Positions 608-39,226 of a stretch of 39,226 bases of DNA are shown piece after piece. The position numbers and the translations under genes were made by a program. Below the pieces are notes generated by a model, which saw nothing but the letters and a program-made list of their open reading frames with translations, was not told where the DNA came from and searched no databases. The DNA is from a virus, in IMG/VR virus record IMGVR_UViG_3300047171_000007, positions 1-39,226 of that record. One strand, written 5' to 3'. Positions within the stretch are counted from its first letter, which is position 1, and each line of letters opens with the position of its first letter.

Positions 608-1576
608 TTACTTTGATGCGTCCCTCTCCGCAATGAGGGAGTCAATCAACTTCTTGGCCTGCGCCTTTGACAACGCACTCAGGGACGTGACACCGGACTC
701 CAGCACGTTCGAGGCTTTCTCGTACACGTCAAGTCCTCGGTCGTCACACATCTTGCGTATGAAGTCCATCTGCTTCTTGGTCGGACCGTCGGGGTTGGGG
801 GAAGCCTGGGTGAGACGCGACGGCTTGGACACCGGGACAGGCTCCACTTCCCCGAACGCCTCAGAAATCGCTTCATAGGGGTCTAGATTGCCCTGTGACG
901 GCTCCTGGCCCTCTGCCTCACCGTTTCCATTGAGCATGGCGAACAGGGCCTTCCAGACTGAATCAGCCTCCTCGGGCTTCAGGTTCTGCACCCCCTTGGT
1001 GTAGCCGGAGGAAATCCACCACTCACCGAAGGACTTGCGCTCGTCGGGGTGCAGGACTTCCAGGCCGTCCTTGATCTGCTGCTGGCGCTCGGTGAGGGGG
1101 GCGGTGCGCTGGACGGTCTCCGCTTTCTTCACGGCGGCCTCCGTCTTGGCGAGTTGTTTGTCCCTGTTCGATGCCCTTGCCCCGTCGTCGTCATCCTCGG
1201 TGACAATCCCCAGCATCGCGCTGACGGCATAGCGTCGGGCGTAGGTGATGGACGACCCCTGACCCTGCGCGTCGTTCTTCTCGATGTGCAGGAACATCTC
1301 TTCGGACATCCATTGGCCTGACTCGTGCAGGAGTTTGGTGGTCAGCGTCGGCGTCTCGCCACGAATCGTTGGTGACTGCGACACCGCTAGCCCGTACTTG
1401 GCGAGCGTGGGGGTGACGGCCTCACGGATGTCCCCCAGGTCGGCGTAGGTGTACGAGAACGACCCGCCGGACTTCATGGGTATCTTCGCCGTCTTGGTTT
1501 TCTTGATCGCCGGGAACTCCCCCTGCGCCTTGGACAATGCCCCGGCCAGTAAATCAATGCTCTCGCTCTGGCTCAC
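608..1576 (-). CDS. erf: ERF-family single-strand annealing protein
   Basis: This protein would anneal complementary single-stranded DNA during phage recombination and replication. The first 155 residues follow the ERF family closely: ESIDLLAGALSKAQGEF, SYTYADLGDI, then LHESGQWMSEE and the GSSITYARRYAVSAMLGI block followed by an acidic EDDDDGARAS stretch. The last 65 residues (KKQMDFIRKMCDDRG) form the small C-terminal domain often fused to phage annealing and ssDNA-binding proteins. A longer ORF exists, but the GTG at 1576 has a GAGGGGG site about 7 nt upstream and overlaps the nuclease stop codon as GTGA, so translation is coupled. It gives 322 residues. The pairing with the nuclease upstream resembles Red-like exonuclease plus annealase modules. 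Confidence 0.85.
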   Translation of the reverse strand: MSQSESIDLLAGALSKAQGEFPAIKKTKTAKIPMKSGGSFSYTYADLGDIREAVTPTLAKYGLAVSQSPTIRGETPTLTTKLLHESGQWMSEEMFLHIEKNDAQGQGSSITYARRYAVSAMLGIVTEDDDDGARASNRDKQLAKTEAAVKKAETVQRTAPLTERQQQIKDGLEVLHPDERKSFGEWWISSGYTKGVQNLKPEEADSVWKALFAMLNGNGEAEGQEPSQGNLDPYEAISEAFGEVEPVPVSKPSRLTQASPNPDGPTKKQMDFIRKMCDDRGLDVYEKASNVLESGVTSLSALSKAQAKKLIDSLIAERDASK

Positions 1577-2409
1577 TTCTCCCCCTCTTTCGTGGCTAAC
1601 TCCATAGCCTTGACTGTGTTGTGCAACTTCAAGCACGCCAAGAATCCCTCCCGCGCCAACTCCTGTGAGATGTTCTTGAACGGGTCTACTACTTCGTAGG
1701 TGCCGTCCTCATGGAGGTAGATGCCCCGAGCGCCGTCAATCTTGGGCAGGGCTTTGTACTCGCCCAGCGCCCCGGCGTCGTCGTAGGTGGCGAGGTTGCC
1801 GTGCATGTAGGCCGCCTGCTGCATCGCCAGACTCTGCTCGTAGTGTCCGCCAGTCTTGTAGTCGATGAGCATCGTCCCGGCGTCCATCTCTACGATGGCG
1901 TCGAAGCGTCCACCGTAGGCGTAGATGTCGTTGAGTACCACCAGTTCAGCGTGTAGAAACGTGGGACGACAGTTGCGGTGGAACGCCTCTAGTGCGTCCA
2001 CGAATCCCGAGTCCTCCACCCTGACATCGACCGGCTCTCCGGGGGCTTTCGTCCACGCCTCCGCTACTGCGTGGACTCTGGTCCCGCGCTCCATCTTGGC
2101 GTCCCACTGTCGGCGGAACTCCCCACGGCAGTAGTGGATGAACACCTCGTCGTCCGATCCGTTGAAGCCCATCTCGCGCTCCTTCTTGCCCAGAGCGGTC
2201 AAGGTCTTGCGGTGACGGCGGACGATGGTTCGCTTGCGTGAGTGTTCGAGCAGGGCGGTCTCGGCAGCAATGCCGGACGCGGCCCAGGGCAGGGCGGGCT
2301 TGTCGATGATGTTCAGAACTGTCGTCACACCAGGGACGGTGGGTCCGCCCGGCTCCACGCGATACTGATGTCTCAGGGCCGCCTCGTAGTCGGTCAATTT
2401 CTTTGGCAA
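1573..2409 (-). CDS. PD-(D/E)XK nuclease, Cas4/RecB-like
   Basis: A 278-residue predicted exonuclease of the RecB/Cas4 fold. The diagnostic order of residues is visible: GTRVHAVAEAW with a conserved His near residue 113, Glu at about 155, GGRFDAIVEM with Asp at about 170, LIDYKTG with Asp183 and Lys185, and QQAAY (Gln/Tyr motif). No cysteine quartet for an Fe-S cluster is obvious. The start is taken as a TTG at 2409 because GGAAGGAG lies 6 nt upstream; the ORF extends only five codons further. Its stop overlaps the ERF start by 4 nt. Together they probably process and anneal DNA ends during replication or recombination. Confidence 0.75.
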   Translation of the reverse strand: MPKKLTDYEAALRHQYRVEPGGPTVPGVTTVLNIIDKPALPWAASGIAAETALLEHSRKRTIVRRHRKTLTALGKKEREMGFNGSDDEVFIHYCRGEFRRQWDAKMERGTRVHAVAEAWTKAPGEPVDVRVEDSGFVDALEAFHRNCRPTFLHAELVVLNDIYAYGGRFDAIVEMDAGTMLIDYKTGGHYEQSLAMQQAAYMHGNLATYDDAGALGEYKALPKIDGARGIYLHEDGTYEVVDPFKNISQELAREGFLACLKLHNTVKAMELATKEGEK

Positions 2410-2438
2410 AACAACTCCTTCCAAGGTTTGTTGTAGTG

Positions 2439-5712: not shown

Positions 5713-7629
5713 TTACGTGAGAAGCCCGCTCGTAGCGGTCTTTAGGGTCACTTCACAGATCCCCTGGAACCCACCTTCGGGGTGCTCCGAGGGTTCGTAC
5801 CAGACCATGTTGATGTTGTCCACCACCACCGACCACGAACTTGAACCTTCTTGATAGGTGACAAGTTCTTGGGTGAGGTGCAGACCTTCGAGGAACGCGA
5901 GCTCGGAGTAGACGTTCATCGCTCGTCGCGCACCGCCTCTGGCAATCACCTCGTCGTAGAAGCGCAGGGCGCAGATGATGAACTTGCCCGCGGTGATGGC
6001 GGGGAAAGATTGCAGGGTGGCCCGTCTGACGGTGGTGGCGACGGTGTTGGAACTCGTGGTGTTGAGGGTCAGGTCGGTCTCGAAGAGTTCCCCGAACACT
6101 TGGGGGACGGAGAACAGAGTCGTGGCCCCGGTCAAGGTGCCGAGCGAATACGTGTTGGCGTCGTCCTGATTCACCGAGACCGAGACGCTCCCGGCGGCGG
6201 AAGTCGTATCGACGGAGTACGCGACCAAGACTTTCTGGTCAGGGATTCTGAACCCGATGTACCCGGAGTAGATGTTGCCCGACGTGTAGGTCGAAGCTCC
6301 GGTATAGACGCCCTGACCCGAGACGCTGAACACCGGCACACCGTTCCACCAATCCATCGAGGTAATCTCCCCGGTCCCCGAGACCATGAGGTGAGACGAA
6401 TACGCCGGGGTCTGGTCCCCAGTGAAGGTAGAGATGTCCATCCACCCGATACCCGTGCAGGTGGAACTGGCGTTCACGCTGGAGGCGGAGTAGTTCGACC
6501 AGCCGAAGTAGACGAAGCGTTCGTTGGCGGTGAAGCAACGCACGGGCTTGGTGGTCTTCTCCTGAAGATTGGGGATGATGGGGCCGATCTTGAGTAGACC
6601 CGTGTCCTGACCGGAGGGGTTTATCACTCCGAGAGTTTGACAGAACCTCGCCCCGAGGTTGGTGCCGATGAGGATGTAGTTGACGAAGGCGAAGATGGAG
6701 TAGACGATTTCCCCAGGGGGGAACAGGGTAGCGACGGTGGGGGCGGAGAGAGTCGTGCCGTCCGCAGCGAACTGTGTCTTGTAGACGGCGGATACTGTAG
6801 CGGAGGGAAGATTACCCCCTGAGTACCCTCCGATGTAAATCCACCCATTACCTCCAGACGCGCAGTTCCACAGCCACGACGACGAGGACTGGGTGATGAG
6901 AGCGGTGGGCCATACAGTGATTGCTCCTGAGACTTGGTAGAGGGAGTTGCCGTTCGCAACGATGAGGACGTTAGCGGCGTAGGCCACGAAGTACACGTTC
7001 TGGCTGGCGACGTTGACGAGGTGGGAGGTGGTCCATGTCCCCACCACGCAGGTGTACACCCCACCCGTCCCACAAGCGATGTAGAGGGAGTTGCCGTCAG
7101 TACACATTGAGACAGGAGTGCCTGTCAATCCCGAGAGCGCGGAGTACGTCACCCCGTCGGTGGACACTGAGACACCCGTGGAGTTGAGTTTGATGATGTA
7201 CCCTTGGGCCACCAGGATTCTCATGGTGGGGTCCGTGTCGGCCACGAACTGCTTAGTAGCAGGGAGGTTCGTGGCATACCACTTGTTGGTGAACACGTCC
7301 ACGCCCTGACCGTGGTGGTAGCGGTTGGGCTGAGAGCCATGCCGGTCGGCGAACAACTGACCCGAACCCAGCGACCAGTCGTTCATCTCGCTACGCCACA
7401 AGCCTTCAGGGTTGATGGTCGCTTCACCCGGCTGGTTGGTGATGTCGGTGGCGTCACGCTGGGCGGGGATGGATGAGTGGCGGAAGGAGTCGCGACGCCC
7501 GAACTCGAACGTCGTGTCAATCATGTACCCGTGTCCGCCGATGCCTACGTCGTACGTCCCCGGAATGTCGGGGGACGACCCCGCCGAACCCCAGAGGAAC
7601 GGATCGTCGTAGGCGGCGAGCACTCCCAT
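5713..7629 (-). CDS. Large beta-rich virion protein, possible beta-propeller tail component
   Basis: A 638-residue protein with repeated short motifs suggestive of propeller blades (for example SMCTDGNSLYIACGTGGVYT and VANGNSLYQVSG), then a C-terminal jelly-roll-like segment (KFIICALRFYDEVIARGG). The N-terminus (YDDPFLWGSAGSS) holds no signal peptide. The ATG abuts the previous stop (TAG|ATG). It sits next to the adaptor-like 405-residue protein, so a tail-nozzle or tail-hub role as in podoviruses is plausible. No family is recognised with certainty. Confidence 0.5.
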   Translation of the reverse strand: MGVLAAYDDPFLWGSAGSSPDIPGTYDVGIGGHGYMIDTTFEFGRRDSFRHSSIPAQRDATDITNQPGEATINPEGLWRSEMNDWSLGSGQLFADRHGSQPNRYHHGQGVDVFTNKWYATNLPATKQFVADTDPTMRILVAQGYIIKLNSTGVSVSTDGVTYSALSGLTGTPVSMCTDGNSLYIACGTGGVYTCVVGTWTTSHLVNVASQNVYFVAYAANVLIVANGNSLYQVSGAITVWPTALITQSSSSWLWNCASGGNGWIYIGGYSGGNLPSATVSAVYKTQFAADGTTLSAPTVATLFPPGEIVYSIFAFVNYILIGTNLGARFCQTLGVINPSGQDTGLLKIGPIIPNLQEKTTKPVRCFTANERFVYFGWSNYSASSVNASSTCTGIGWMDISTFTGDQTPAYSSHLMVSGTGEITSMDWWNGVPVFSVSGQGVYTGASTYTSGNIYSGYIGFRIPDQKVLVAYSVDTTSAAGSVSVSVNQDDANTYSLGTLTGATTLFSVPQVFGELFETDLTLNTTSSNTVATTVRRATLQSFPAITAGKFIICALRFYDEVIARGGARRAMNVYSELAFLEGLHLTQELVTYQEGSSSWSVVVDNINMVWYEPSEHPEGGFQGICEVTLKTATSGLLT

Positions 7630-8847
7630 CTAGAACCCGGCTTGGCTACCGAAGAGACGCTTGAGGCGGGTGGCTTCGGCGATGATGCGACGCTGACGCA
7701 GTTGGAGAACCTGCGCCACGGAGTTCATCACGGAACCCGGTGGGACTTCGGTGGCCCGTCGAGAGTCGGGAGCTGCGTCTATCTGGTTGCGCTTTATCTC
7801 TCTGGGCGCGATGAGGGCGACCATCGCGCCCAGAGGAGGTAGGTCATACATCGTTGACGAAAGTCCCGCGACGGAGGTGGCGTCGTCGCCGAGGTTGACG
7901 AAGGGGGAGAACGCCGATTTGTACGTCACCCGGAACGGCATCCCCGGATACCCGCCCGAGTTCATACGCAGCGCGTACCCCGAGGGGAACGCCGTCAGGT
8001 CAGCCCCCGAGGTGAGGGTCCACTTCTTTCGGGGGATGGGGACCCAGTACCCGATGGGGTAGGGCATCTTCTGTTGGACCGAGATAATCTCGATGAGACC
8101 CGACACCCCGGCCAAGTCGTAGCCGACGGTCGCGGGGTTGTAGGTGATTTCCACGGAGTTGACCTGGTAGAGGCCGTTCTCCGAGAGGTCCGAGAGGTCG
8201 TCGTTGATGGCGGACATGATGTCGAACGCCGAGAACCGGGGGTTGACGTACACCATCGACCCCGATGCGTGGCTGGCCTCGCTCGAACCGAGGTATCCCG
8301 GCACGACGGTGATGGTCGTCCCATTGATCGCTTGGACGTAGAAGAGTTCGAGGTCGATGGCGAGGATTATCTCTGGCCGGACGTTGGGAAGGATTGTCCC
8401 CGCCGGGTCCGAGACGGTCATCGTCGTGGAGCCCAAGGAGTACGAACCCGACAAGGTCAGGGACTCCACCTGTTGGCCGGGCTGGACCCGGCGCAGGACT
8501 TGGCTAATCATCGACCCCAAGGTCGCGGTGTTGGACGAGACGACGTTGGGGCTGACCTGGATGGTGTCGATTACCGCCGCCTGCCCGGTGCCCGTGGAGA
8601 CGAACTCAGCGACGAGGAGACCGTTGAGTCCCGTCGTGTCAACTTGAGCCTGATAGACCCCTGTGGATAACCTCGCCACCATCCCCACCCCAGGGGTGGA
8701 GGAGCCCGAGTACGTCCACGTCGCGATGGTCGCGCCGTTGTTCATGTTGTACTTGAACGTGACGGTGGTGGGATCGACGACGGTATCAGTGGAGTCCGCG
8801 ACGAACGTCACGGTGAACTGGGCTACGTTGCCTGCAAGAATCGCCAT
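7630..8847 (-). CDS. Probable head-tail adaptor / tail structural protein with Ig-like N-terminus
   Basis: Two parts are visible in 405 residues. Residues 1-95 look like a BppU-type or Ig-like domain (AQFTVTFVADSTDTVVDPTT). Residues 105-405 resemble podovirus adaptor or tail-tubular A proteins: MISQVLRRVQ, a loop carrying a beta-hairpin, FDIMSAINDDLSDLSENGLY, and a helical Arg-rich C-terminus (AEATRLKRLFG). The fusion of a baseplate-like domain to an adaptor-like core is unusual. The ATG follows directly on the previous TAG. Function is inferred from fold-like features and from position beside the 638-residue protein. Confidence 0.45.
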   Translation of the reverse strand: MAILAGNVAQFTVTFVADSTDTVVDPTTVTFKYNMNNGATIATWTYSGSSTPGVGMVARLSTGVYQAQVDTTGLNGLLVAEFVSTGTGQAAVIDTIQVSPNVVSSNTATLGSMISQVLRRVQPGQQVESLTLSGSYSLGSTTMTVSDPAGTILPNVRPEIILAIDLELFYVQAINGTTITVVPGYLGSSEASHASGSMVYVNPRFSAFDIMSAINDDLSDLSENGLYQVNSVEITYNPATVGYDLAGVSGLIEIISVQQKMPYPIGYWVPIPRKKWTLTSGADLTAFPSGYALRMNSGGYPGMPFRVTYKSAFSPFVNLGDDATSVAGLSSTMYDLPPLGAMVALIAPREIKRNQIDAAPDSRRATEVPPGSVMNSVAQVLQLRQRRIIAEATRLKRLFGSQAGF

Positions 8848-10194
8848 CTAGGACACCTTCGCTACTGTGACGGGGCCTGCCGTACTTGTTGCAATGGTAA
8901 CATCCCCGGCTGTCGCGACGGTGCCAGTGACGACGCCGACCGTCCCTACGGCGCGGTATTCAACGGCGGGGATAAAGAGAAATGACACGCTTTCACCAGA
9001 GAAAAGGGTATCTGATGACGTTCGGGGGTGGACGACGCCACTACGAGACACCGCTTCACTGATGAAAACGGTGTCAGACGCAGTACGCGACGCTGAAATT
9101 ATAGATCGACTGGCCGATTCTGATGAGAATACGGTGTCCGATGCGGCGCGACTGAAGTTGACCACCGTTCGCGACGCTGACTCTGAGGAAAATACCGTGT
9201 CCGAGTTCGCCCTGGTGTTCGTGGAGACTGAACGCGAAACGGACTCCGAGATGAACAACGTGTCGGACGAGATTCTTGAACGGACGACCCCTGGATTAGA
9301 GGAAGACTCCGAGATTAATAGAGTGTCCGATGCGGCGCGCGATTTAGTAGCCGCCGAACGACTGGCTGATTCAGAGACGAACAAGGTGTCACTACTCGCG
9401 CGCGACCTAGTAGAGACTGCGCGCGAGACCGATTCCGAGGAGAAGAGGGTGTCTGAAACTGCCCTGATACGAGTAGCCGTGGCCCGAGAAACGCTCTCAG
9501 AGATGAAGAGGGTGTCCGAAGATGTGACCAGCGATGCTTCAATGATGATCGCTGTGGTGGTGTTATATCCAGCGCCCGTGTTCGTCGAGCCTGGAGCGTA
9601 CGCGGTGTTTGATGCAAGAGATAGGTTGTAAACCTCTTCTGTCCCGGTGTTAGTCGGTGAGTCAATGTAGGAGAACCCCGACGTTGAACCACCGGCACAA
9701 AATGAACCGGAGTCTCCAAAGCCCACATACGCCTGGGGGTTGGAGGTTGTGGCACTCGTAAGACTGGCGTAGGTGAAGGTGGTCGCCGCGCCAGTCCTCG
9801 TTGTGCCAGACGCCGGCACTTGCCAAAAAGTATTAGCACCTAACCCAGCGGTGTACGAGTCCCCCCAGTACGTAGCTGTAACCCCGGTCGTAGAACCCGA
9901 GTAGGTAATCGTAAGAACGTCCGCAGCGTTCGTGAGAGTTGCCTTGGCCGTCCAGATATCCGTAGTCGAAGCGTCCGTGGCATCAGACTCACGAGCACGG
10001 CGTATCCATGCCCCACTCTTGGTTCCACTGACTGCGGTAATAGTTATGGATGTCGTCAAATAGATTGGTGCGAATACCGCAAGGTCGCCTACCGCGCCGT
10101 AGGCGTGGGGCATCGTGTACGACGTTGAGGCTGGAGCGGAAAGTGTATCCCCATTGGTGGCGAGTGGGAACCCAGTGGGGTGGGTTATCGCCAC
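8848..10194 (-). CDS. Tail protein with nine 21-residue SDTLF-SES repeats
   Basis: This 448-residue protein has a Ser/Thr-rich beta domain (1-223), then nine tandem units of exactly 21 residues starting SDT(L/V)F (226-405), and a short glycine/valine-rich end. The unit pattern is SDTLFxSESxSR followed by about nine variable residues ending near Arg. Such regular Ser-rich repeats usually form a fibrous beta-solenoid or triple-beta shaft. The start is a GTG with no evident Shine-Dalgarno site 3 nt after the upstream gene. A host-contacting fibre or surface decoration is a reasonable guess; no specific family is recognised. Confidence 0.6.
   Translation of the reverse strand: MAITHPTGFPLATNGDTLSAPASTSYTMPHAYGAVGDLAVFAPIYLTTSITITAVSGTKSGAWIRRARESDATDASTTDIWTAKATLTNAADVLTITYSGSTTGVTATYWGDSYTAGLGANTFWQVPASGTTRTGAATTFTYASLTSATTSNPQAYVGFGDSGSFCAGGSTSGFSYIDSPTNTGTEEVYNLSLASNTAYAPGSTNTGAGYNTTTAIIIEASLVTSSDTLFISESVSRATATRIRAVSDTLFSSESVSRAVSTRSRASSDTLFVSESASRSAATKSRAASDTLLISESSSNPGVVRSRISSDTLFISESVSRSVSTNTRANSDTVFSSESASRTVVNFSRAASDTVFSSESASRSIISASRTASDTVFISEAVSRSGVVHPRTSSDTLFSGESVSFLFIPAVEYRAVGTVGVVTGTVATAGDVTIATSTAGPVTVAKVS
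8980..9519 (-). repeat. In-frame 63-bp tandem repeats (nine units)
   Basis: The DNA encodes nine units whose SDTLF/SDTVF motif recurs every 21 codons without a slip: residues 226, 247, 268, 289, 310, 331, 352, 373 and 394 of the tail protein. Nucleotide identity between units is only moderate, so the array is old and kept by selection on the protein rather than newly expanded. Confidence 0.9.
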
Positions 10195-11552: not shown

Positions 11553-11676
11553 TAAGTCTCCTTAGGAACGGGGAGTAGTCCCATCTCTTCCAGTGTAGGG
11601 CGACTTGTGGCGCGGATACGAGTTTCTAGGTCTCCCTTGGCATAGACAAAGATTCTATTTCTTCAAGCGTTGGTCG
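11552..11676 (-). repeat. Diverged tandem duplication of a gene 3' end
   Basis: Two 51-nt segments 74 nt apart (11626-11676 and 11552-11602) both encode 17 codons beginning RPTLEE and ending ET-stop. The first ends the glycosyltransferase (TAG). The second lies in the -1 frame, and its TAA shares a base with the next gene's ATG. The second copy has an open frame back to about 11665 but no start codon. Confidence 0.7.
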
Positions 11677-13041
11677 GTTTGTATTTAATCGCTGCGTGCA
11701 AGTGGGACAGAGGGCCGCATGTCCGCTGTATTCGGGAACCTTCGCCAACTGTTCTGGGGTAAGGCCCGTCTCCAACGACTCCAGGGGCAGGTCGATGTCG
11801 TCCTGATATTCGTCGCGCAGGAGGTTCTGGGGGAGACACGAGATGTCGAGGTTCCCGCCGTCGTAGAGAACACGCTTGACGTCAGCGGGCTCCCAGTAGT
11901 CCTTACCCGGCTCGAGGAGGTACTGCAATCCCCCGGCCTCGAAGAAGCGGGTGTTGTTGACCCTCACCAAGTACCGGCGAATCTCCGGTTCGACCCACTC
12001 AACAGGTTCGATGTCGGGGAGTTCGAGGTTCTCTCGCCCGATGGCGTCGAGGTAGCGGGTGGCGGCGACGTCCCACGTGAACACCATGCGTGCGATGGCG
12101 GAGTTGGCCTTGGCGACTTCGAGGGCGTCGTTGTAGTGCAGGTAGACATCCTCCATCGCTTGACAGAGGTCGTCGAAGTTCGGCTCCCACCAACTTCCAG
12201 CGGGACCGTGGTGGAAGGACTGAGGGGGTGTCTCGGTGAGGGTCCACCCCAGAGGGTAGGTGATGAGGTCACCGTAGGCGGCGTGACCGTGTGCGTTGGT
12301 GGCGATAGTCGGGCACCCCTGAGCGATGGCTTGCAGGGGGCGCATACCGAACCCCTCCCCACGCGAGGGCTGGACGTAACAATGCGCCATCGCGTACAGA
12401 GCTCGTTCCTCGTCGTCGGTCAACTTGCCGGTGATGAGGTGGATGCGCTCGTCCTTGGGGAAGTCCGAGGCTTTGGCGGAGTGGACGAACAACCTCGGGG
12501 CCGGACCGTCCGCCACCCGTCCGTCGAACACCTTGCGGAAGGCGTCGATGACGAGTTCTGATCCCTTGCGATGCCCACCCCCGCTGATGAGAAACGTGAA
12601 GTACGGCTCGTCGAGTGTCGGTCTCTCCGTCGGCGCCCACTGTTGGGGGTCAATGCCGAGAGGCACGTACTTCACGTTCTGGTGGTAGCGAGAGAACAGT
12701 TCAAAGTTCTGCTGGCTCGGGACGATGACGGTGTCGAACACGTCGAGGGATTCCCTGAACGGCTCGGGGAGGATGGTGGATTCCCACATCGTCAGGATGC
12801 TCTTGGTCTGGCCCTTCCACCACCCTCGGCAGTGACCGGGGGTGGAGAGCCACGCGACGTGCGCACAGGTGGCGGACTTGCCGTCCACGTGGGGGATGTA
12901 CTTCTGCGCCCCCGAACCCTGAGGGTTGGGGAGGTCGTCGAAGACTTCGACCCCTTGGCGTTCCACGGCTTTGATGAGGTCTACGCCCATACGTCCGTAA
13001 CCTAACTCCCGGCTGTGGACGTAGAGGCCGTTCATCCTCAC
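11626..13041 (-). CDS. GT4-like glycosyltransferase (GT-B fold)
   Basis: 471 residues with the classic C-terminal donor-binding features of family GT4: SGGGHRKGSELVIDAFRK (about 153-170), RLFVHSAK, and SRGEGFGMRPLQAIAQGCPT (about 226-245) containing the E-x7-E type motif. The N-terminal acceptor domain includes GYGRMGVDLIKAV. About 170 residues after the catalytic core end in a CPTC knuckle-like motif near the C-terminus (ALCPTCTQRLN). A nucleotide-sugar-dependent enzyme is predicted, modifying either a phage tail protein or a host surface polymer. The GTG start overlaps the previous stop (GTGA). Being embedded in the tail module favours glycosylation of fibre proteins, but this is inference. 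Confidence 0.75.
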   Translation of the reverse strand: MRMNGLYVHSRELGYGRMGVDLIKAVERQGVEVFDDLPNPQGSGAQKYIPHVDGKSATCAHVAWLSTPGHCRGWWKGQTKSILTMWESTILPEPFRESLDVFDTVIVPSQQNFELFSRYHQNVKYVPLGIDPQQWAPTERPTLDEPYFTFLISGGGHRKGSELVIDAFRKVFDGRVADGPAPRLFVHSAKASDFPKDERIHLITGKLTDDEERALYAMAHCYVQPSRGEGFGMRPLQAIAQGCPTIATNAHGHAAYGDLITYPLGWTLTETPPQSFHHGPAGSWWEPNFDDLCQAMEDVYLHYNDALEVAKANSAIARMVFTWDVAATRYLDAIGRENLELPDIEPVEWVEPEIRRYLVRVNNTRFFEAGGLQYLLEPGKDYWEPADVKRVLYDGGNLDISCLPQNLLRDEYQDDIDLPLESLETGLTPEQLAKVPEYSGHAALCPTCTQRLNTNRPTLEEIESLSMPRET

Positions 13042-13573: not shown

Positions 13574-13781
13574 GCGATGCAGTCTCCGTATCCCGTTCCA
13601 AAGGCGGTGTAGTTGGTGAGAAGTGTAGCCTGCGCCGCCGTGATAGGGGTGGTTGCCCCACCTTGGAAGTACGCCACGGGGTAGGGATTATGCGCGACAT
13701 CGTGATCACTGGGGACCTGAGGTAGTTAGCGCCGAGCATGGCCTAGACCTTCGGTATCTGCGACGCCAGTTGGTAGGTCAT
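13570..13781 (-). pseudogene. Remnant of a paralogue of the 162-residue tail-module gene
   Basis: After the spike gene's TAA a new ATG (13781, TAATG) opens a frame of only 12 codons ending in TAG. Further down, another frame encodes QVPSDHDVAHNPYPVAYFQG and a TLLTNYTAFGTGYGDCIA ending. This matches the C-terminus of the 162-residue protein at 15319-15807, 20 residues of it identically. That frame has no upstream start before a TAA. The stop still overlaps the next ATG as ATGA. The interval is not a multiple of three. It is best read as a duplicated gene that has lost its middle. Confidence 0.6.
13664..13722. repeat. 59-bp direct repeat, copy 1
   Basis: Identical over 59 bp to 15419-15477. 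It lies inside the gene remnant. Perfect identity over this length, with diverged flanks, indicates a recent duplication or gene conversion. Confidence 0.9.
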
Positions 13782-15316
13782 TAGTCGCCCACGAATACAA
13801 CGGTCGGGGCCACGGTGTAGGTCATGGTGAATGTCCCGCCCGCAGCGAGTCGGTAGGTGTCGCCAACTGCGAGAACACCTGAAACCGCAACCCCATTGAC
13901 GCTAACTGCGGTGACAGTCCCAGCGGCGGTGACGTAGAGCGTGCCGTCTACTCCGGTGTTATTGGTAGCGGCGACAGTTGAGGCACCAATAGCGAAAGCA
14001 GACCCAGGAATGGTCGCCCCAGCGGGGTTAAGACCAATTACGTGATTGAACTTGATATTTGCATTACCTGTGGCCCCGATGGTCGCTGGCTTAGTGACGT
14101 TGCCAACCAAAGAACCTGATGACCACGAGAACCCCGAGACGTATTGGAGAACGTTCACGCCGTAGGATTGGTACGTCCCCATTGCTCGACAGCCCACCAG
14201 TGAGACGTTCGACGTGAGCGCCGACCCGCTACTTCCCTCAAAGTGGAATCCCTCATAGGTGTTGTGGCTATTCTGTGACGACTCTCTCGCCGTGCAGGCA
14301 GAGAATTGAAGGTCGCTGGACTGTTGGATGAAATACCCGTAGATGCCCGAATAGTCGGCCAAACATCCAACAAGACGAGTGCGGTTCCCCGAGTACAACT
14401 GATAGCCGTGCTCGCATTGCCACACGTCGCACCCGATTATCTCCGATCCGAAGTGGCCGGATAAAAGAATCCCGGGACCGTTGGCGTACCCTCCGATGTC
14501 GCAGTTGATAATGTGGGCATCGCTCGATTGTGAGTCGAGTTCTATGGCCGCCGACTGGCTGGAAGCGACGTAATCCCGAAAAAGGCAGTCGGTGACGTAG
14601 GGATTCAGACACGTCTTACTGCCAGCCGCACCGAAACGGAGTCCCTGCCCGCGTGGGTTACCGACGACACACCGCGATATGAAAAAATCGTCCATCCCGT
14701 ATATGTCAATCATCGGCGTAGTGCCGCTTTGGTTGTTCCCATTGCCGTTGAACACGAGATCGAAAATCCTTAACCCGTTTCGCTGTGTCCCATCGTTGGG
14801 TGTCGAAAGAAGCGATGCTACGGTAGAGGATATAAGTTCTAGTGTCGCACCACGGCTACCGGCAAGCGTCAAATAACTGTAGGGGACACTGATGCCCGTA
14901 GTCATGTAGGTTCCGGGGGGGAAATAGACGACTCCGCCGCCGCCGACGCCTGCCGCCGCCGTGACAGCCGCGTTTATGGCGGTCGTGTCATCGGTCGAAC
15001 CATTACCCGTGGCCCCATACGCTTTGACGTTAAAGACCTGACCACCCTTGTCCTCGAAGCCTGTGATTGGCCCGGTCATCGTGCCACCGGCTAGGGGGAG
15101 TTTGGATGCCTCCGCCGCTTCAGCGCGGTTGGTCTCAGCGGTGACGGATGCTACTGATGCGAGGACCGGAGCGCCGGTGGTTCCAATGGCTGTCTCAATC
15201 GCCACAATCGCATCGTTGGCGTTGGCGTGCTGGCCTGAGTGCGAAGGATTATTTAACGGACTCGACGAAGTGGGGTCTGTCAATGAATCAATAGAGCCGG
15301 GGAAGTTCGTTGCCAT
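13781..15316 (-). CDS. Tail spike with pectate-lyase-type beta-helix
   Basis: 511 residues from the ATG at 15316. An N-terminal attachment region (GSIDSLTDPTSSSPLNNPSH, then an Ala-rich helix) leads through LPLAGGTMTGPI to the hallmark start of phage spikes, VFNVKAYGATGNGSTDDTTA. A right-handed parallel beta-helix follows, with recurring short strands and Asn/Cys ladders (for example HIINCDIGGYANGPGILLSG). A compact C-terminal beta domain (AAGTVTAVSVNGVAVSG) probably drives trimerisation. It binds and probably depolymerises a host surface polysaccharide, though catalytic residues cannot be picked out. It lies in the receptor-binding module downstream of the capsid genes. Confidence 0.8.
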   Translation of the reverse strand: MATNFPGSIDSLTDPTSSSPLNNPSHSGQHANANDAIVAIETAIGTTGAPVLASVASVTAETNRAEAAEASKLPLAGGTMTGPITGFEDKGGQVFNVKAYGATGNGSTDDTTAINAAVTAAAGVGGGGVVYFPPGTYMTTGISVPYSYLTLAGSRGATLELISSTVASLLSTPNDGTQRNGLRIFDLVFNGNGNNQSGTTPMIDIYGMDDFFISRCVVGNPRGQGLRFGAAGSKTCLNPYVTDCLFRDYVASSQSAAIELDSQSSDAHIINCDIGGYANGPGILLSGHFGSEIIGCDVWQCEHGYQLYSGNRTRLVGCLADYSGIYGYFIQQSSDLQFSACTARESSQNSHNTYEGFHFEGSSGSALTSNVSLVGCRAMGTYQSYGVNVLQYVSGFSWSSGSLVGNVTKPATIGATGNANIKFNHVIGLNPAGATIPGSAFAIGASTVAATNNTGVDGTLYVTAAGTVTAVSVNGVAVSGVLAVGDTYRLAAGGTFTMTYTVAPTVVFVGD

Positions 15317-15318
15317 TA

Positions 15319-15807
15319 TTATCCCGTCGTCAAACAGTTTGCGTACCCCGCACCGTGCGCTGTATACGTGTTGAGAAGATTGTACTGTGCAGGGGTAACG
15401 ACTGAGGTGCAACCACCCTGGAAGTACGCCACGGGGTAGGGATTATGCGCGACATCGTGATCACTGGGGACCTGAGGGCGCACACCGGGGTCGATGTAGA
15501 TGGAGCGCACGTAGGGGTCCTGAGGGTTACTGATGTTCCACGGGAACACCGCCGACATGTCGGTGTTGGAGTTCTCCGGCGAGGGGTCGGACTGCACGAC
15601 CGTGTTGTCCGAGAGAATCCACACGTTCACTCCACGGATGCGGTTCTCGTAGTGACGCCACAGGTCGATCTGGTCCTGTGTGGAGTCAGGAGTGAAGGTG
15701 GGGACCACCTGGACGAGGGGTGGGGTGAAGTATTTAGTGGGGAGAATACCCGAGTCGTAGAGAGCGAGCGAGTCGTAGAGAGCGAGCGAGTCGTATGCGG
15801 TCGCCAC
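15319..15807 (-). CDS. Tail-module protein with YDSLAL repeats
   Basis: 162 residues starting from a GTG. The N-terminus repeats YDSLAL twice and then YDS, encoded by 18-bp tandem repeats. The middle (RHYENRIRGVNVWILSDNTV, PWNISNPQDPYVRSIYIDPG) is aromatic and proline-rich. The C-terminus (QVPSDHDVAHNPYPVAYFQG and a TPAQYNLLNTYTAHGAGY segment) is duplicated in the remnant at 13570-13781. No domain is recognised. Position directly before the spike suggests a small spike-adaptor or virion protein. Confidence 0.55.
   Translation of the reverse strand: MATAYDSLALYDSLALYDSGILPTKYFTPPLVQVVPTFTPDSTQDQIDLWRHYENRIRGVNVWILSDNTVVQSDPSPENSNTDMSAVFPWNISNPQDPYVRSIYIDPGVRPQVPSDHDVAHNPYPVAYFQGGCTSVVTPAQYNLLNTYTAHGAGYANCLTTG
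15419..15477. repeat. 59-bp direct repeat, copy 2
   Basis: Exact copy of 13664-13722, here inside the intact 162-residue gene. It is probably the source copy, because its frame is unbroken. Confidence 0.9.
15751..15795 (-). repeat. 18-bp tandem repeat encoding YDSLAL
   Basis: Two and a half exact copies of an 18-bp unit near the 5' end of the 162-residue gene. Exact identity suggests recent slippage expansion within the reading frame. Confidence 0.85.
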
Positions 15808-17110: not shown

Positions 17111-18103
17111 CTACAGGTCGATTACGGGGGTGTCCGTACCGGCGGTCGCGTTCTGACCGATGGACGATGCGGACTCCTGACGCCAGACTGACGCCTGACG
17201 GAAGAGGCCGTAGCCACCCATCCACTTCCAACCGAGGGGCTGGAAGCGACGCAGGGAGTCGGTGATCGGACCCATGACCGTGACGGGGAGCGGACCGTTG
17301 CCGTCCTTCATCGCCCACACCTTGGCGAGTGCCTGACGACCGAGGAACAACGTGGCGTACACGTCGGTGTCGGTGGTCGAGGAACCGGCGTCGGCGAACA
17401 GCGGGGCCGTCGGGGTCTCCAAGAACCGCACTCCGGCGAAGGAGCCGATCTCACCACGGAAAATCTCGTCCGGTGCCGAGTAGACGTGGGGAGCGATGAG
17501 GGCTTGGTTGCCCGACTCCTGCCAGAGGTCGAAGGCGACATCGGGGTGGATGACTCCGAGGTAGTACCCGTTGAAGCCCGGAACGTTGTTGCGCTTCAGC
17601 GCAGCGACGTTGTAGCGGACATCGAAGGCACGCATGGTGTCGTTGGGGGTGATGGACGAACGTCCACCGGGGGTGACACCCGTCGCACCGGCTGAGTACG
17701 AGACGTTGGTGCCCGCCTGCAACTGCAACTTGGCGAGCTCGTCAATCGAGCGACCAGCGTTGTAGCCGACGGTGTTGGCCTGCACCTCGTCGATGGAGAC
17801 GAAGGACTGACCGCGAACCGCAGCGGTGGTGATCGTGCCGTTACCGTACTCGTAGATGGTCAAGGTGACCTGCGAGGACGTGAGCGCGACGGGGGTGATG
17901 TCGGTCGATTCGTTCAGCGCGGTCGTGGCGAGAGCCATGTCGTTCTGAACGTTGAACACGACGCTCGAACCCGGCATCGACTGGTTGGTCGGCTTGATGT
18001 CGGCGAACTGGTCGTAGTACAACTCCGGGCGGAGCGCGTAGTACGCCAGCATGTCGTAGGCCGTCTGAACGTAGTCAACGGTCCCTGTGGTGGTATATGC
18101 CAT
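17111..18103 (-). CDS. Major capsid protein (HK97 fold, N4-gp56-like)
   Basis: 330 residues with the organisation of N4-gp56-type capsid proteins: YDMLAYYALRPELYYDQFAD near the N-terminus, PGSSVVFNVQNDMA, then a beta-rich EYGNGTITTAAVRGQSF segment. Later come YNAGRSIDELAKLQLQAGTN, GVIHPDVAFDLWQESGNQAL, RGEIGSFAGVRFLETPTAP and the C-terminal GWKWMGGYGLFRQASVWRQE. It forms the icosahedral shell. AGGAGG lies 10 nt before the ATG. The scaffold gene is directly upstream, and the promoter at 18782 would drive both at high level. Confidence 0.85.
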   Translation of the reverse strand: MAYTTTGTVDYVQTAYDMLAYYALRPELYYDQFADIKPTNQSMPGSSVVFNVQNDMALATTALNESTDITPVALTSSQVTLTIYEYGNGTITTAAVRGQSFVSIDEVQANTVGYNAGRSIDELAKLQLQAGTNVSYSAGATGVTPGGRSSITPNDTMRAFDVRYNVAALKRNNVPGFNGYYLGVIHPDVAFDLWQESGNQALIAPHVYSAPDEIFRGEIGSFAGVRFLETPTAPLFADAGSSTTDTDVYATLFLGRQALAKVWAMKDGNGPLPVTVMGPITDSLRRFQPLGWKWMGGYGLFRQASVWRQESASSIGQNATAGTDTPVIDL

Positions 18104-30821: not shown

Positions 30822-32705
30822 CTAGGACGCTCTGCTCATTGTACGTCCTGATAGCCACGACGGACGGCCTTGTCGAACCGGCGTGGAGTTGGCGCGGTGA
30901 AGGTACTGCATCTGAAAGAGAGCGAACCAGCACGCCATCACGCAGTCGTCGGTCGAGGCTTGGGGATACCTCGTCACCTCATCGACCAGTTTCATCGCCA
31001 GCGCCCGGCCCTTGCCCACCCCCGGCGTCCTAGACACCTTTCCGGGCAGTCGGATGTTGCCATACTTGAACTTGGGGGCGATCATCTGCACCCCGAACTC
31101 CTCGGATGTCTTGTTGCGATACGTGTCGTGGGGGATTATCTGCACCTGGTTCTTCGCCTGCCACTTCAGGACGTGGTCGTACTTGAGCAGGAACCGCTGA
31201 GCTCCGTTCTGCTCGACTATCCAGTGCGAGATGGGGATGCCCAAATCCCGGCTCATCTGCTGCCAATCCTCCATCACCCCCGAGTAGGTGTGCGAGTTCT
31301 GGTTCCAGTCGAGGAAATCCGGCGCGTCCATGCCCTGCCTGAGCAGGTCGATGAGGAACCACTGGTCACTGGGTTCGTTATACAGCCACCACTGAATAGC
31401 CCAGTACCTGGTGGGAGAGGGGTCCACGGAGACTATCGAGTAACTCGGGGCCGAGAGGCCCTGGGGGACCTCCAACCTATCCCTCTCCTTGTCCCAACAC
31501 CCCGGAAACCCCCCGGTCCCGGCGACCCAGGCGGGGTTCACCAGCGTCGCATCGGGCGACACGTCCTCCTGCTGGTAGACCTGGGCGAAGGTGTCGGGGC
31601 GGTTCTTCATCATCCCCGAGATTTCGCGCCAGGTTATCCGTCTCGGCGATAACAGGCACCCGTCGGGGTAGGCGGGCGCACTCCACTTGTGGGTCTCCTT
31701 GCCCTTGCAGAGTTCGTCGTAGTGGGCCTTGTAGATGATTTGGTGGTACTTGCGCTGCACCCCCTCGTCCTCTCTCAGAGAGACCCCCTCGGTGTCCTCG
31801 TCGTCCCCGTCCTCTATCTCGGCCACCTCCACGTCCAAGCAGTAGCGGTAGAGGTCGTTCGCCCCCATCCTCTGACCCTGGAGGATTAAGAGTCCCCCCG
31901 GCTCCAGACGGCGTTCGGCGTAGGTGTCCCACCAGTCGCGGTCCTTCTCGATGGCGTCGAGAGTACGGAGTCGGTTCGAGGTGACGAGGTCGTCCCAGAT
32001 GCAGAAGTCGTAGCGACCGCCGATGAATTCCTGGTCGCGTCCGACGGCGGTCCACGTGGGTTCCTTGGAGGTGATGGCTCGCCCCCCGAACTGCTCGACG
32101 ATGAAGGCGTCCTTGGTCCAGGCTTCGGCGTCCTGGGGCTTCATCCGCCCGAAGTCCCCCGAGATGGTCGCGACCGCATCAACCGCGACGCCCTTCTGCT
32201 TGTCCTCGTCGTCGGCCAGGATGGGGGCGGTCGCCTCCAACGCTCGACGGATCTGCGAGGTGTAGCGAGAGGCGAGTTTCGAGGTGGCACTCCCCACTAG
32301 TCCACGAATGGCCCGGTCGCGACACGTCAACCACAGGGGGATGGCGTAGGTGAAGGTGCTGGATTTACCCGCACCCGGCGCGACGTTGATGACGCAATAC
32401 TCCTTATCAGGGGTTTTAAGAAGTTCGACGATCCTGTTGGCCGCGTCCACCTGCCACGGCAACCCGATCCTGCCCAGATACCGCTCCTGGAAGTACCCGA
32501 AATCCTCCAGCGCCCGTTGCGCCTCAGGGGGTAGGGCCGAGACCGCACGCGGGTCGGGCATCTCGCGGTTCGCCCGTGACGCCGTTCGGTACTGCACCCC
32601 ATCGGGCTGTTTGGACTCGAAGCGTTTGGCGGAGGAGATGCCGATACTCGCCATCCGAGCCGCCTGGGTCATGTTCAACCCGTTGGCGCGCCCTTGCACG
32701 TACAC
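30822..32705 (-). CDS. terL: Terminase large subunit (packaging ATPase-nuclease)
   Basis: 627 residues. The ATPase half has Walker A (APGAGKSS, 109-116), Walker B (FCIWDD, 234-239) and the coupling motif LQGQRM (275-280). The nuclease half has SIVSVDPSPTRYWAI with Asp428, WIVEQNG with Glu498 and STDDC with Asp586/587, the usual three acidic clusters of the RNase-H-like fold. It pumps DNA into the procapsid through the portal and cuts it. The N-terminus (GLNMTQAARMASIGISSAKR) looks like a helix-turn-helix of the small-subunit type, which could explain why no separate small terminase is seen. The GTG at 32705 is used. In-frame codons upstream (TEAQWT) also fit the domain, so a non-standard start such as the ATT at 32729 behind GAGGTGAG is possible. 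Confidence 0.9.
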   Translation of the reverse strand: MYVQGRANGLNMTQAARMASIGISSAKRFESKQPDGVQYRTASRANREMPDPRAVSALPPEAQRALEDFGYFQERYLGRIGLPWQVDAANRIVELLKTPDKEYCVINVAPGAGKSSTFTYAIPLWLTCRDRAIRGLVGSATSKLASRYTSQIRRALEATAPILADDEDKQKGVAVDAVATISGDFGRMKPQDAEAWTKDAFIVEQFGGRAITSKEPTWTAVGRDQEFIGGRYDFCIWDDLVTSNRLRTLDAIEKDRDWWDTYAERRLEPGGLLILQGQRMGANDLYRYCLDVEVAEIEDGDDEDTEGVSLREDEGVQRKYHQIIYKAHYDELCKGKETHKWSAPAYPDGCLLSPRRITWREISGMMKNRPDTFAQVYQQEDVSPDATLVNPAWVAGTGGFPGCWDKERDRLEVPQGLSAPSYSIVSVDPSPTRYWAIQWWLYNEPSDQWFLIDLLRQGMDAPDFLDWNQNSHTYSGVMEDWQQMSRDLGIPISHWIVEQNGAQRFLLKYDHVLKWQAKNQVQIIPHDTYRNKTSEEFGVQMIAPKFKYGNIRLPGKVSRTPGVGKGRALAMKLVDEVTRYPQASTDDCVMACWFALFQMQYLHRANSTPVRQGRPSWLSGRTMSRAS

Positions 32706-36529: not shown

Positions 36530-36878
36530 CAGCCGCCCCCTTAGACCAGTCACGGGAGCGCAGGATGGCGTCGGACAATTCAAACATCTCCGGTGTTTCC
36601 TCTTTGCACTTCGAGCAATCGAAACCGTCACATGCCCAACAAATACCGTGTTCGCAGACGGCCAACTTGACTTCGATGCCAGAAACGGGGATGGCCTCAG
36701 CGTCGCGTTGCCAGTCTCGCCAATCCCTAAACTCCGGCGACTTCACCGCGAGCCACCGTGCGTCGTGCTTATTCTCGGCAAGAACGACTACCCAATCGCA
36801 CCACCATTCAAGCAACTCGGGAGGGTACGAAGTCCCGGCGCGGTGCATCTCTCCTGAAATACATTCGTAGTGCCTCAT
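36522..36878 (-). CDS. Cys-rich small protein with an RSRDWSKG ending
   Basis: 118 residues from the ATG at 36878 (ATGA overlap). Aromatic-rich (ELLEWWCDWVVVLAENKHDA) with a cysteine cluster near residue 75-90 (CEHGICWACDGFDCSKCK) that is probably a zinc site. The last residues DAILRSRDWSKG are shared with the 75-residue gene upstream because both carry the 35-bp repeat. No family recognised. Confidence 0.55.
   Translation of the reverse strand: MRHYECISGEMHRAGTSYPPELLEWWCDWVVVLAENKHDARWLAVKSPEFRDWRDWQRDAEAIPVSGIEVKLAVCEHGICWACDGFDCSKCKEETPEMFELSDAILRSRDWSKGAADG
36536..36570. repeat. 35-bp direct repeat, copy 1
   Basis: Identical to 36883-36917. It encodes the AILRSRDWSKG end of the 118-residue protein. 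Confidence 0.9.
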
Positions 36879-37102
36879 CCCTCCCCCTTAGACCAGTCAC
36901 GGGAGCGCAGGATGGCGATGGCGTGGTCAAGTCCTCGTTCGAGTCCATCGCCGTCTATCTCTCGGAATTGACTACCAAGACGCCGTGACTCGTTCTCGAT
37001 TCTCAAAGACTCGTCCCCCAGCGCCGACACGATTCTCTCCACTGCTTCAGAGACGGCATTGCTCTTGATTTGGTCGATGAAAAGCGGACCTTCATTTTCC
37101 AT
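36875..37102 (-). CDS. Small acidic protein with an RSRDWSKG ending
   Basis: 75 residues from the ATG at 37102, behind AAGGAGG; the longer ORF is a shadow of the upstream gene, with which it overlaps by 11 nt. A helix (AVSEAVERIVSALGDESLRI) is followed by GLERGLDHAIAILRSRDWSK. The C-terminal tag repeats that of the next gene, though the two proteins are otherwise unalike. Function unknown. Confidence 0.55.
   Translation of the reverse strand: MENEGPLFIDQIKSNAVSEAVERIVSALGDESLRIENESRRLGSQFREIDGDGLERGLDHAIAILRSRDWSKGEG
36883..36917. repeat. 35-bp direct repeat, copy 2
   Basis: Exact copy of 36536-36570, at the 3' end of the 75-residue gene. Both copies encode the same C-terminal tag in frame. 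Confidence 0.9.
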
Positions 37103-37493
37103 CTTCGCCTCCTTCAATCCACGTCCCACCGGGTGTCGTGTTCTTAGCAAAATCGTCCATTGCAATCTGCTCGCGCAGTCTCTCAACCTCGTCTCGCAGT
37201 TTCGCGATCTCCGCGTCTTTGAGTTCTGCCATGCGGTGTATGTCGCAGGGCCAGCCGATGCCCCCGGCCAGGTAACCCTGTTTGCCATTGGGCAACGTGA
37301 CTGGCCCAGTACTTTTGAGTTGCAGAGTCGAGCCACCAACTACGACGTGCGCCGCGTCCCAATACGCCTGGTCGTAGCCACCGGGGTATCCCGACCACTT
37401 CCACCAGTTGGCCTCTTCGAGCTGCGTCCCGTCGAAACCGTCAGCGGTCTCGAGGTTCCACCCCGGCTGAGGAGTCCACAGTGCCGGGATCAC
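37092..37493 (-). CDS. Truncated GH16-like domain fused to a coiled-coil end
   Basis: 133 residues, ATG overlapping the hydrolase stop (ATGA). Residues 1-85 look like the beginning of a family-16-type concanavalin fold: GWNLETADGFDGTQLEEANW, WDAAHVVVGGSTLQL and GKQGYLAGGIGW. The fold stops before the ExDxE catalytic strand. A Met then begins a heptad helix (MAELKDAEIAKLRDEVERLR) with no Shine-Dalgarno site of its own, ending GGTWIEGGEDGK. The gene appears to join the 5' part of a carbohydrate-active gene to a small coiled-coil gene. Family similarity was judged by eye. It could bind polysaccharide but should not be catalytic. Confidence 0.5.
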   Translation of the reverse strand: MIPALWTPQPGWNLETADGFDGTQLEEANWWKWSGYPGGYDQAYWDAAHVVVGGSTLQLKSTGPVTLPNGKQGYLAGGIGWPCDIHRMAELKDAEIAKLRDEVERLREQIAMDDFAKNTTPGGTWIEGGEDGK

Positions 37494-39226
37494 TTCGTCA
37501 ACGCCTGAATCGCCGCGAACACCGGCTTCGGGGTGTACGGCCCAGCACCTGAGACTTGTCCGTAGAACAACCCAGCACTGGGGGCGTCACCGAGAGAGAA
37601 CAGGATGATGACTTCAGGACCGAGTTCGTTGAACGCGTTGAGAAAGTCCGTCGTGTATTGCGCTTGCAGTTGCGGGGTCATCTCGGGGAACACGTCGGAC
37701 GAGTTCGTGGTCACTGACGGCCAGCCAATCTCGGTAATCCACGTCGCGGCTGTCTCGCCGACGCTCTCTAAGAACGCCTGATATTCGAGGTATTGAATGT
37801 TCAGGTCCGGTCCCCAGAGATTCCCGTCGAGGTACGGACAGTTCGTCGGTCCGGGGTAGAGATGGATGCTGATGATGTCCTTGAGTGAATGTGGCGTCAC
37901 TGAGTTCTTGTAGAGACCCGCAAGCCAGTTCCAGCCCGAGCCGCCTTGATTGATGTTCGCGACCGGACCCAGGTGAACGACGCAACTCGGGTCAGCCGCC
38001 TTCATCGCGGGGTAGCACAGCGACAGAATCTCCATGTAGAGAGCGGGGTTCATCAACAGCGCAATCCCTGAACCGTATTGATACCTGTCAAGTTCGTTCC
38101 CGATTTCCCAATGCAGTCCGGGGCACCGTGCGACGAGCCACGACATCGCGTCCGCGAACTGTTGCGGGGTGCAAGGGTAGTTCGTGTTGTAGCCCGAGTT
38201 CGGAACGTTGCCCGAGAGACCTGGCGAGTACGTCGGAGCCCACGCTCCACTGACGACAAGAATCAACTCAAGTCCGTACTGCGCGCACTCGGCTTTGAGC
38301 GCGTTGATTTTCACCGCCGCTTGCGGGTCGAAAGACTGAGACGCGGCTAACGCTCCGAACGTCGCCGTGAACGCGGCGGCTGACTGCGGGCAATTCTGAA
38401 GTTCAGTCGTCGAACCGGGGTTGTTGAAATAGAGAACGTATCCGAGTGACGACTCATTCGCCTTGACCCACGACGCCGCCGCTTCAATCCAAGCCGGGTC
38501 GTCGCCCGAGCCGTAGTTCGTCGTCGGCCACAGCCCGAATTCAGGGATTGAGAACGGCTTGCCTTGAGACTGAGCGAACGCGAGTCCTGGCGCTAACGAC
38601 TCAGCAATCACCGTCCAGCCCGCCGCGCCCGGTTGACCTCCCTGATTCTCGTACACGTCAGCCGAGACGTAGTCAACGTATTCAGCCCCCGGCCACGCGC
38701 CTTGAGTGATGGGGTCGTATCCGTTGCACGAGACGCCACCGTTCCAATCGAATTGAAATTCTGACGAGACCGCACGAGCGCACTTCACGAGGTCGATGAA
38801 CGCCGCCTTGTGTTGAGCCGCGAGCGCCGGTCCGCTCCACGGATACCAGCCGCTTCCGTACAACTCCCAGCCGATTCGCAAAATGCAATCGGGACGAACT
38901 GACGCAATCGCCGTGAACACTTCCGTGAACAGCGAGTCCCAGACTCCATTGCCGACATCCGCGAGCGTCATCAGCGTCGGCGTCGGTGTCGCGGGGTTGA
39001 GTCCTTGCGTCGGACCTGACGGGCTTGTCGTCTGTCCAGTCCCCGAAGCGCCCGGTGTGCCAACGACTGGCCCAATCAACATCGGAATCGACATGATTGC
39101 TTTCCCAGCGCCAGCGCATTGTTCGATGTACCAACTGTTCGCCATGCCACTCGCCCATGAGTGCGTCGAGTCAAGGAATTGAAGTTGAATCTCACGATTC
39201 GACAATCCGAGATACGTCTCGTTGTC
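37490..39226 (-). CDS. Tandem clan GH-A glycoside hydrolase (GH26-like plus GH5/GH39-like), 5' partial
   Basis: The frame is open to the window edge, so the 5' end is missing; a TTG at 39205 is only the first possible start inside. Two catalytic parts are seen (numbering from that TTG). Part one: ILRIGWELYGSGWYPW with acid/base Glu114 and KPFSIPEFGLW with nucleophile Glu222, close to GH26 mannanase/glucanase motifs. Part two: LHWEIGNELDR with Glu371 in an N-E pair and TWITEIGWPS with Glu492, as in GH5/GH39/GH53-type barrels. Part two seems to begin around the third barrel strand, so its first strands may be missing. The enzyme would degrade a host envelope or environmental polysaccharide. Substrate unknown. 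Confidence 0.65.
   Translation of the reverse strand, partial: DNETYLGLSNREIQLQFLDSTHSWASGMANSWYIEQCAGAGKAIMSIPMLIGPVVGTPGASGTGQTTSPSGPTQGLNPATPTPTLMTLADVGNGVWDSLFTEVFTAIASVRPDCILRIGWELYGSGWYPWSGPALAAQHKAAFIDLVKCARAVSSEFQFDWNGGVSCNGYDPITQGAWPGAEYVDYVSADVYENQGGQPGAAGWTVIAESLAPGLAFAQSQGKPFSIPEFGLWPTTNYGSGDDPAWIEAAASWVKANESSLGYVLYFNNPGSTTELQNCPQSAAAFTATFGALAASQSFDPQAAVKINALKAECAQYGLELILVVSGAWAPTYSPGLSGNVPNSGYNTNYPCTPQQFADAMSWLVARCPGLHWEIGNELDRYQYGSGIALLMNPALYMEILSLCYPAMKAADPSCVVHLGPVANINQGGSGWNWLAGLYKNSVTPHSLKDIISIHLYPGPTNCPYLDGNLWGPDLNIQYLEYQAFLESVGETAATWITEIGWPSVTTNSSDVFPEMTPQLQAQYTTDFLNAFNELGPEVIILFSLGDAPSAGLFYGQVSGAGPYTPKPVFAAIQALTK

Follow-up and report, generated by a model that had tools for sequence, protein, structure and literature searches.

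Genes for glycoside hydrolases of the GH26, GH16 and GH5 families are known from soil viromes, and one viral GH5 endomannanase among them has been demonstrated to be active (PMC6460857, PMC6786970, PMC10127799). As far as the accessible text of these reports goes, the virus-borne hydrolases are listed as separate enzymes, and the hosts of the mannanase-bearing viruses are predicted to be Actinobacteria (PMC6460857). Among proteins of solved structure, the closest to the locus described here are CtLic26A (endoglucanase H, PDB 2bv9), the nearest GH26 glycanase to the first half of its main product, and PslG of Pseudomonas aeruginosa (PDB 5bx9, 9g17), the best match to the second half by both profile and fold. 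The catalytic pair of PslG consists of Glu165 and Glu276 (PMC11912335). The present locus shares its families and its setting on a virus-like contig with the soil-virome hydrolases, but differs from those described in the accessible text in that two families are fused in one frame and partly deleted. Soil viruses with GH26 and GH16 have thus been reported before, whereas the truncated GH16 neighbor is new here.

The window analyzed is the entire 39,226-base linear virus record IMGVR_UViG_3300047171_000007. The contig is that of a tailed phage, as seen from its terminase, major head protein, tail spike and exonuclease (Table 1), and the terminase distantly resembles those of Streptomyces phages. 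The hydrolase locus lies at the contig end and, since the contig ends inside the first hydrolase gene, phage genes flank it on one side only, rather than on both sides as in the high-confidence category of PMC6786970. The first-pass annotation had offered a depolymerase role for the fused protein. This role better suits the tail spike, which, judging by its predicted β-helix, is most likely the true depolymerase of the phage. A glycosyltransferase gene (11626-13041, minus strand; PHROG 2170) is found close to the tail spike.

Table 1. Positions of the hydrolase locus and of selected phage genes in the window
Feature	Position	Strand	Description and basis
Exonuclease	1573-2424		Tailed-phage gene
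Tail spike	13781-15412	-	Pectate-lyase-type β-helix; Pfam PF12708, PHROG tail spike
Major head protein	17111-18103		Tailed-phage gene
Terminase	30822-32705		Tailed-phage gene
Small ORF	37092..37232	-	Charged, coiled-coil-like, own ATG; sequence
GH16 N-terminal stub	37242..37493	-	tblastn to Actinomycetota GH16 proteins, E 1.3e-10
Fused open frame	37490..39226	-	578 codons plus stop; 5' end cut by contig end
GH39 (PslG-like) domain	37490..38332	-	From α2 on; β1, α1 and β2 absent
Glu499 codon	37730..37732	-	Predicted nucleophile, end of β7, I-T-E-I-G-W
Glu378 codon	38093..38095	-	Predicted acid/base, end of β4, W-E-I-G-N-E
Junction zone	38333..38350	-	C-termini of single-domain viral GH26 proteins, alignment limits, alignment A3
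GH26-like domain	38351..39226	-	Residues 1-292; leave-one-out profile and PDB structure of CtLic26A
Glu229 codon	38540..38542	-	Predicted nucleophile, I-P-E-F-G motif
Glu121 codon	38864..38866	-	Predicted acid/base, R-I-G-W-E motif

The fused frame is open up to the contig end; an earlier numbering of 571 residues began at an internal TTG, and E114, E222, E371 and E492 in that numbering are E121, E229, E378 and E499 in the numbering used here. As had been proposed from the sequence, this single minus-strand frame carries two clan GH-A catalytic pairs, E121/E229 and E378/E499, and all four glutamates are invariant among the aligned relatives. Standard searches recovered little: no family in PHROGs or NCBIfam accounts for the fused protein, tblastn of 50,697 phage records gave no match, and peptide-pattern scans using single sequences found no relatives. 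In Pfam the first half matches GH26 below the cut-off and the second half has no match, a result that, taken alone, would refute the proposal of two GH-A centers but is overturned by family-level profiles. Relatives were recovered once alignments with distant plasmid homologs were used as search input; an alignment with one plasmid homolog gave access to 34 viral records with GH26-like proteins. Profiles were then built without the window protein and scored against it (leave-one-out). In a control with the GH26 and GH39 profiles, none of 200 shuffled sequences reached an E-value of 10.

By its sequence, the first half is a member of the GH26 family. The leave-one-out viral profile aligns with residues 4-292 (E 2e-49, 162 bits; model positions 41-301 of 304), with roughly the first 40 profile positions falling beyond the contig end. 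Joining the contig ends as a circle was considered and dropped, because an ORF at 23-481 leaves no space for the missing GH26 start. A phmmer search retrieves CtLic26A (E 9e-8), and a profile of the 25-row GH26-like alignment (A4) matches GH26 structures, the top one at 1e-43. Across these 25 proteins E121 and E229 do not vary, and they correspond in CtLic26A to the H-E and A-E-F motifs, i.e. to the glutamates of strands β4 and β7. The two proteins further share the Y/W-P-G-x-x-Y/V-V-D motif, the C-terminal helix and, presumably, the barrel. In contrast to CtLic26A, the acid/base glutamate is preceded here by tryptophan rather than histidine, a feature common to most of the viral relatives (G-W-E replaces the classic H-E in many viral GH26-like proteins), and the domain, unlike CtLic26A, scores below the Pfam cut-off and lacks its 5' end. 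The domain probably still works, as a predicted retaining endo-β-glycanase that would use Glu121 as acid/base and Glu229 as nucleophile. Its substrate may be a β-linked glycan, either on the surface of the host or in the surroundings.

The second half (residues 299-578) is related to GH39, in agreement with the order of families guessed in the first-pass annotation. The leave-one-out GH39 profile matches it with an E-value of 6e-34 (111 bits; model positions 120-353 of 363), the profile of the GH39-like alignment (A3) matches PslG at 2e-68, and homologs of this half on plasmids and in 80 genome loci also tie it to GH39. Fold comparison (VIA-align) of its model with PslG gives a Z-score of 20.4 over 255 residues at 3.0 Å; for the structure-library searches the second half served as the only query. 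The N-E dyad on β4 and the glutamate on β7 are common to both proteins, and N377-E378 and E499 are invariant across 42 aligned GH39-like proteins. Unlike PslG, this domain is fused behind a GH26 and has no counterpart of the PslG residues before about 88, which form β1-α1-β2. The same gap is apparent against the family at large: the profile match begins at position 120 in this protein, but at or before position 49 in 41 of 41 relatives, and the absent β1-α1-β2 stretch contains near-invariant G, R and W positions in those relatives.

An AlphaFold2 model of the full protein from its single sequence was discarded (pLDDT 36). When the full protein was aligned jointly with its GH26 and GH39 relatives, the GH39 rows were misplaced onto the GH26 half, and alignment-based folding was therefore restricted to the second half. 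The second-half model (pLDDT 81, pTM 0.83) comprises only α2, β3-β8 and α8, i.e. six strands, with the acid/base after β4 and the nucleophile where β7 ends. Alignment and model thus concur in lacking a complete eight-stranded GH39 barrel, and bear out the earlier suspicion that the second barrel is without its first strands; the second half is therefore better described as homologous to GH39 than as a full member of the family. As two of the eight barrel strands are missing, the GH39-like part most likely retains its catalytic glutamate pair without folding as an enzyme, and would have lost activity.

The first-pass annotation had instead envisaged a working bi-catalytic enzyme. In such a protein the GH26 domain would act alongside a minimal GH39 barrel, whose missing part might be supplied by GH26 residues or through oligomerization, and the two would attack either one polysaccharide or two that are linked. 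In its favor, neither catalytic pair has been lost, no stop has been acquired and the GH39 part models confidently on its own; nevertheless, the loss of β1, α1, β2 and the near-invariant G, R and W, which sets the protein apart from all 41 relatives, and a linker of about seven residues make this unlikely. The more specific version, in which the GH26 domain packs on the six-stranded partial barrel, replaces its missing strands and so keeps the GH39 part active within a compact two-headed GH-A hydrolase, appears highly improbable.

The structure of the junction points to a different origin for the fusion. The end of the GH26 domain, a few residues past the F-G of its last helix, coincides with the stop of most single-domain viral relatives, and similarity to GH39 begins about seven residues further on, in the same frame, at the second helix of that family. 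With these limits the join looks like the product of an in-frame deletion running from the end of a GH26 gene into a GH39 gene, much as the first-pass annotation had supposed.

A third, likewise broken hydrolase gene adjoins the fused frame. Its start codon, GTG, shares bases with the stop codon of the fused gene (GTGA), which suggests that the GH39 and GH16 genes were true neighbors. Over its first 80 residues this stub resembles the N-terminal part of GH16 proteins from Actinomycetota with 37-44% identity, one of these proteins contains the Pfam GH16 domain, and the stub includes the N-terminal β-sandwich strands of that fold. It went undetected when the window was searched with the Pfam GH16 model, probably because that model barely covers these strands. 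The similarity ends at 37257, upstream of the catalytic strand, and the frame then runs into an unrelated small ORF (Table 1), placing a second junction near 37233-37257. The catalytic E-x-D-x-(x)-E strand is absent from the stub, GH16 queries match nowhere else in the window, and no remainder of GH16, GH26 or GH39 was found elsewhere in it at a credible score. With the GH16 similarity lost before the catalytic strand, the locus thus consists of a GH26, a GH39 without its start and a GH16 without its end. This third truncation also counts against a working two-headed enzyme and suggests instead either gene decay or a faulty contig end, both of which are more likely.

As two broken joins lie within about 1.1 kb at the contig end, two main readings have to be weighed, namely real deletions and an assembly chimera. 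On balance we tend to view the locus as the remnant of a phage-borne cassette damaged by deletions. Three glycoside hydrolase genes would once have stood in the phage in the order GH26, GH39, GH16; an in-frame deletion may then have eliminated the stop codon of the GH26 gene together with the initial portion of the GH39 gene, thereby fusing the two, and a second deletion would have taken the catalytic part of the GH16. The GH26 would then be the sole likely active member of the damaged cassette. The alternative, which we regard as a serious but lesser possibility, is that the contig is chimeric over its final 2 kb, so that both the fusion and the GH16 stub would be artifacts; assembly might have wrongly joined pieces of hydrolase genes that stem from this phage, from a relative of it or from a bacterium. 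Besides the position of both joins near the end of a linear, possibly incomplete contig, a chimera would fit with the lack of any match to these genes in all 15 terminase relatives of the phage, none of which is known to be complete and all of which may be fragments. In these relatives the equivalent upstream region carries small accessory genes, some resembling DNA methyltransferases by eye. However, the first join preserves the reading frame, and the overlap of the GH39 stop with the GH16 start is as in a natural operon. The stub moreover begins at the GH16 domain without the signal peptide of its longer bacterial relatives, and the GC content and codon usage of the locus lie inside the range of the phage's accessory genes, the tail spike among them, although codon usage cannot separate phage from foreign DNA in this window and neither measure decides between the readings.

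No intact GH26-GH39-GH16 cassette was found in IMG/VR, which, like the 15 terminase relatives and the contig-end location, weighs against the deletion of a former cassette. None of the other GH26-bearing viral records searched has a GH39 match, and no GH26-GH39 fusion was seen in 296 Actinomycetota genomes; in one actinobacterial MAG (L070, 5509-9395) a GH39-like and a GH26 gene, encoded on opposite strands, are separated by about 1.6 kb. In favor of a former cassette, GH26 and GH16 co-occur in two other viral records. In one (G037; L140) a GH16 gene directly follows the GH26 gene; in the other (G030; L139:8015-11824, minus strand) a 1269-residue protein combines GH26, an M23 peptidase, fn3 and a GH16-like C-terminus, and adjoins further GH16-bearing genes near the portal and terminase. 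The phage-like record IMGVR_UViG_3300042691_043041 (L116) encodes, at 7497-9911 on the plus strand, an 804-residue protein with GH26, Apiosidase-like and putative collagen-binding domains. This resembles the fused frame in having two glycosidase domains, GH26 first, in one frame in phage context, and lends some plausibility to a bi-catalytic protein; however, its second domain is a full-length Apiosidase-like one, and its gene sits between tail-fiber and endolysin genes. Two-glycosidase proteins are hence not unique to this phage. On yet another viral contig two GH26-like genes are adjacent on opposite strands (L102:6716-8738).

If the deletions are real, the locus represents a phage hydrolase cassette caught in the course of shrinking, and indicates that phages can carry genes of GH26, GH39 and GH16 jointly. 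When carbohydrate enzymes encoded by viruses are counted from domain hits only, broken genes can be included; the second and third genes here keep recognizable motifs without a complete fold. Elsewhere in the window a 38-nt direct repeat (36533-36570 and 36880-36917; copies 97% identical) is situated at the 3' ends of two adjacent small genes, each copy encoding A-I-L-R-S-R-D-W-S-K-G, and may be a possible seam for gene shuffling.
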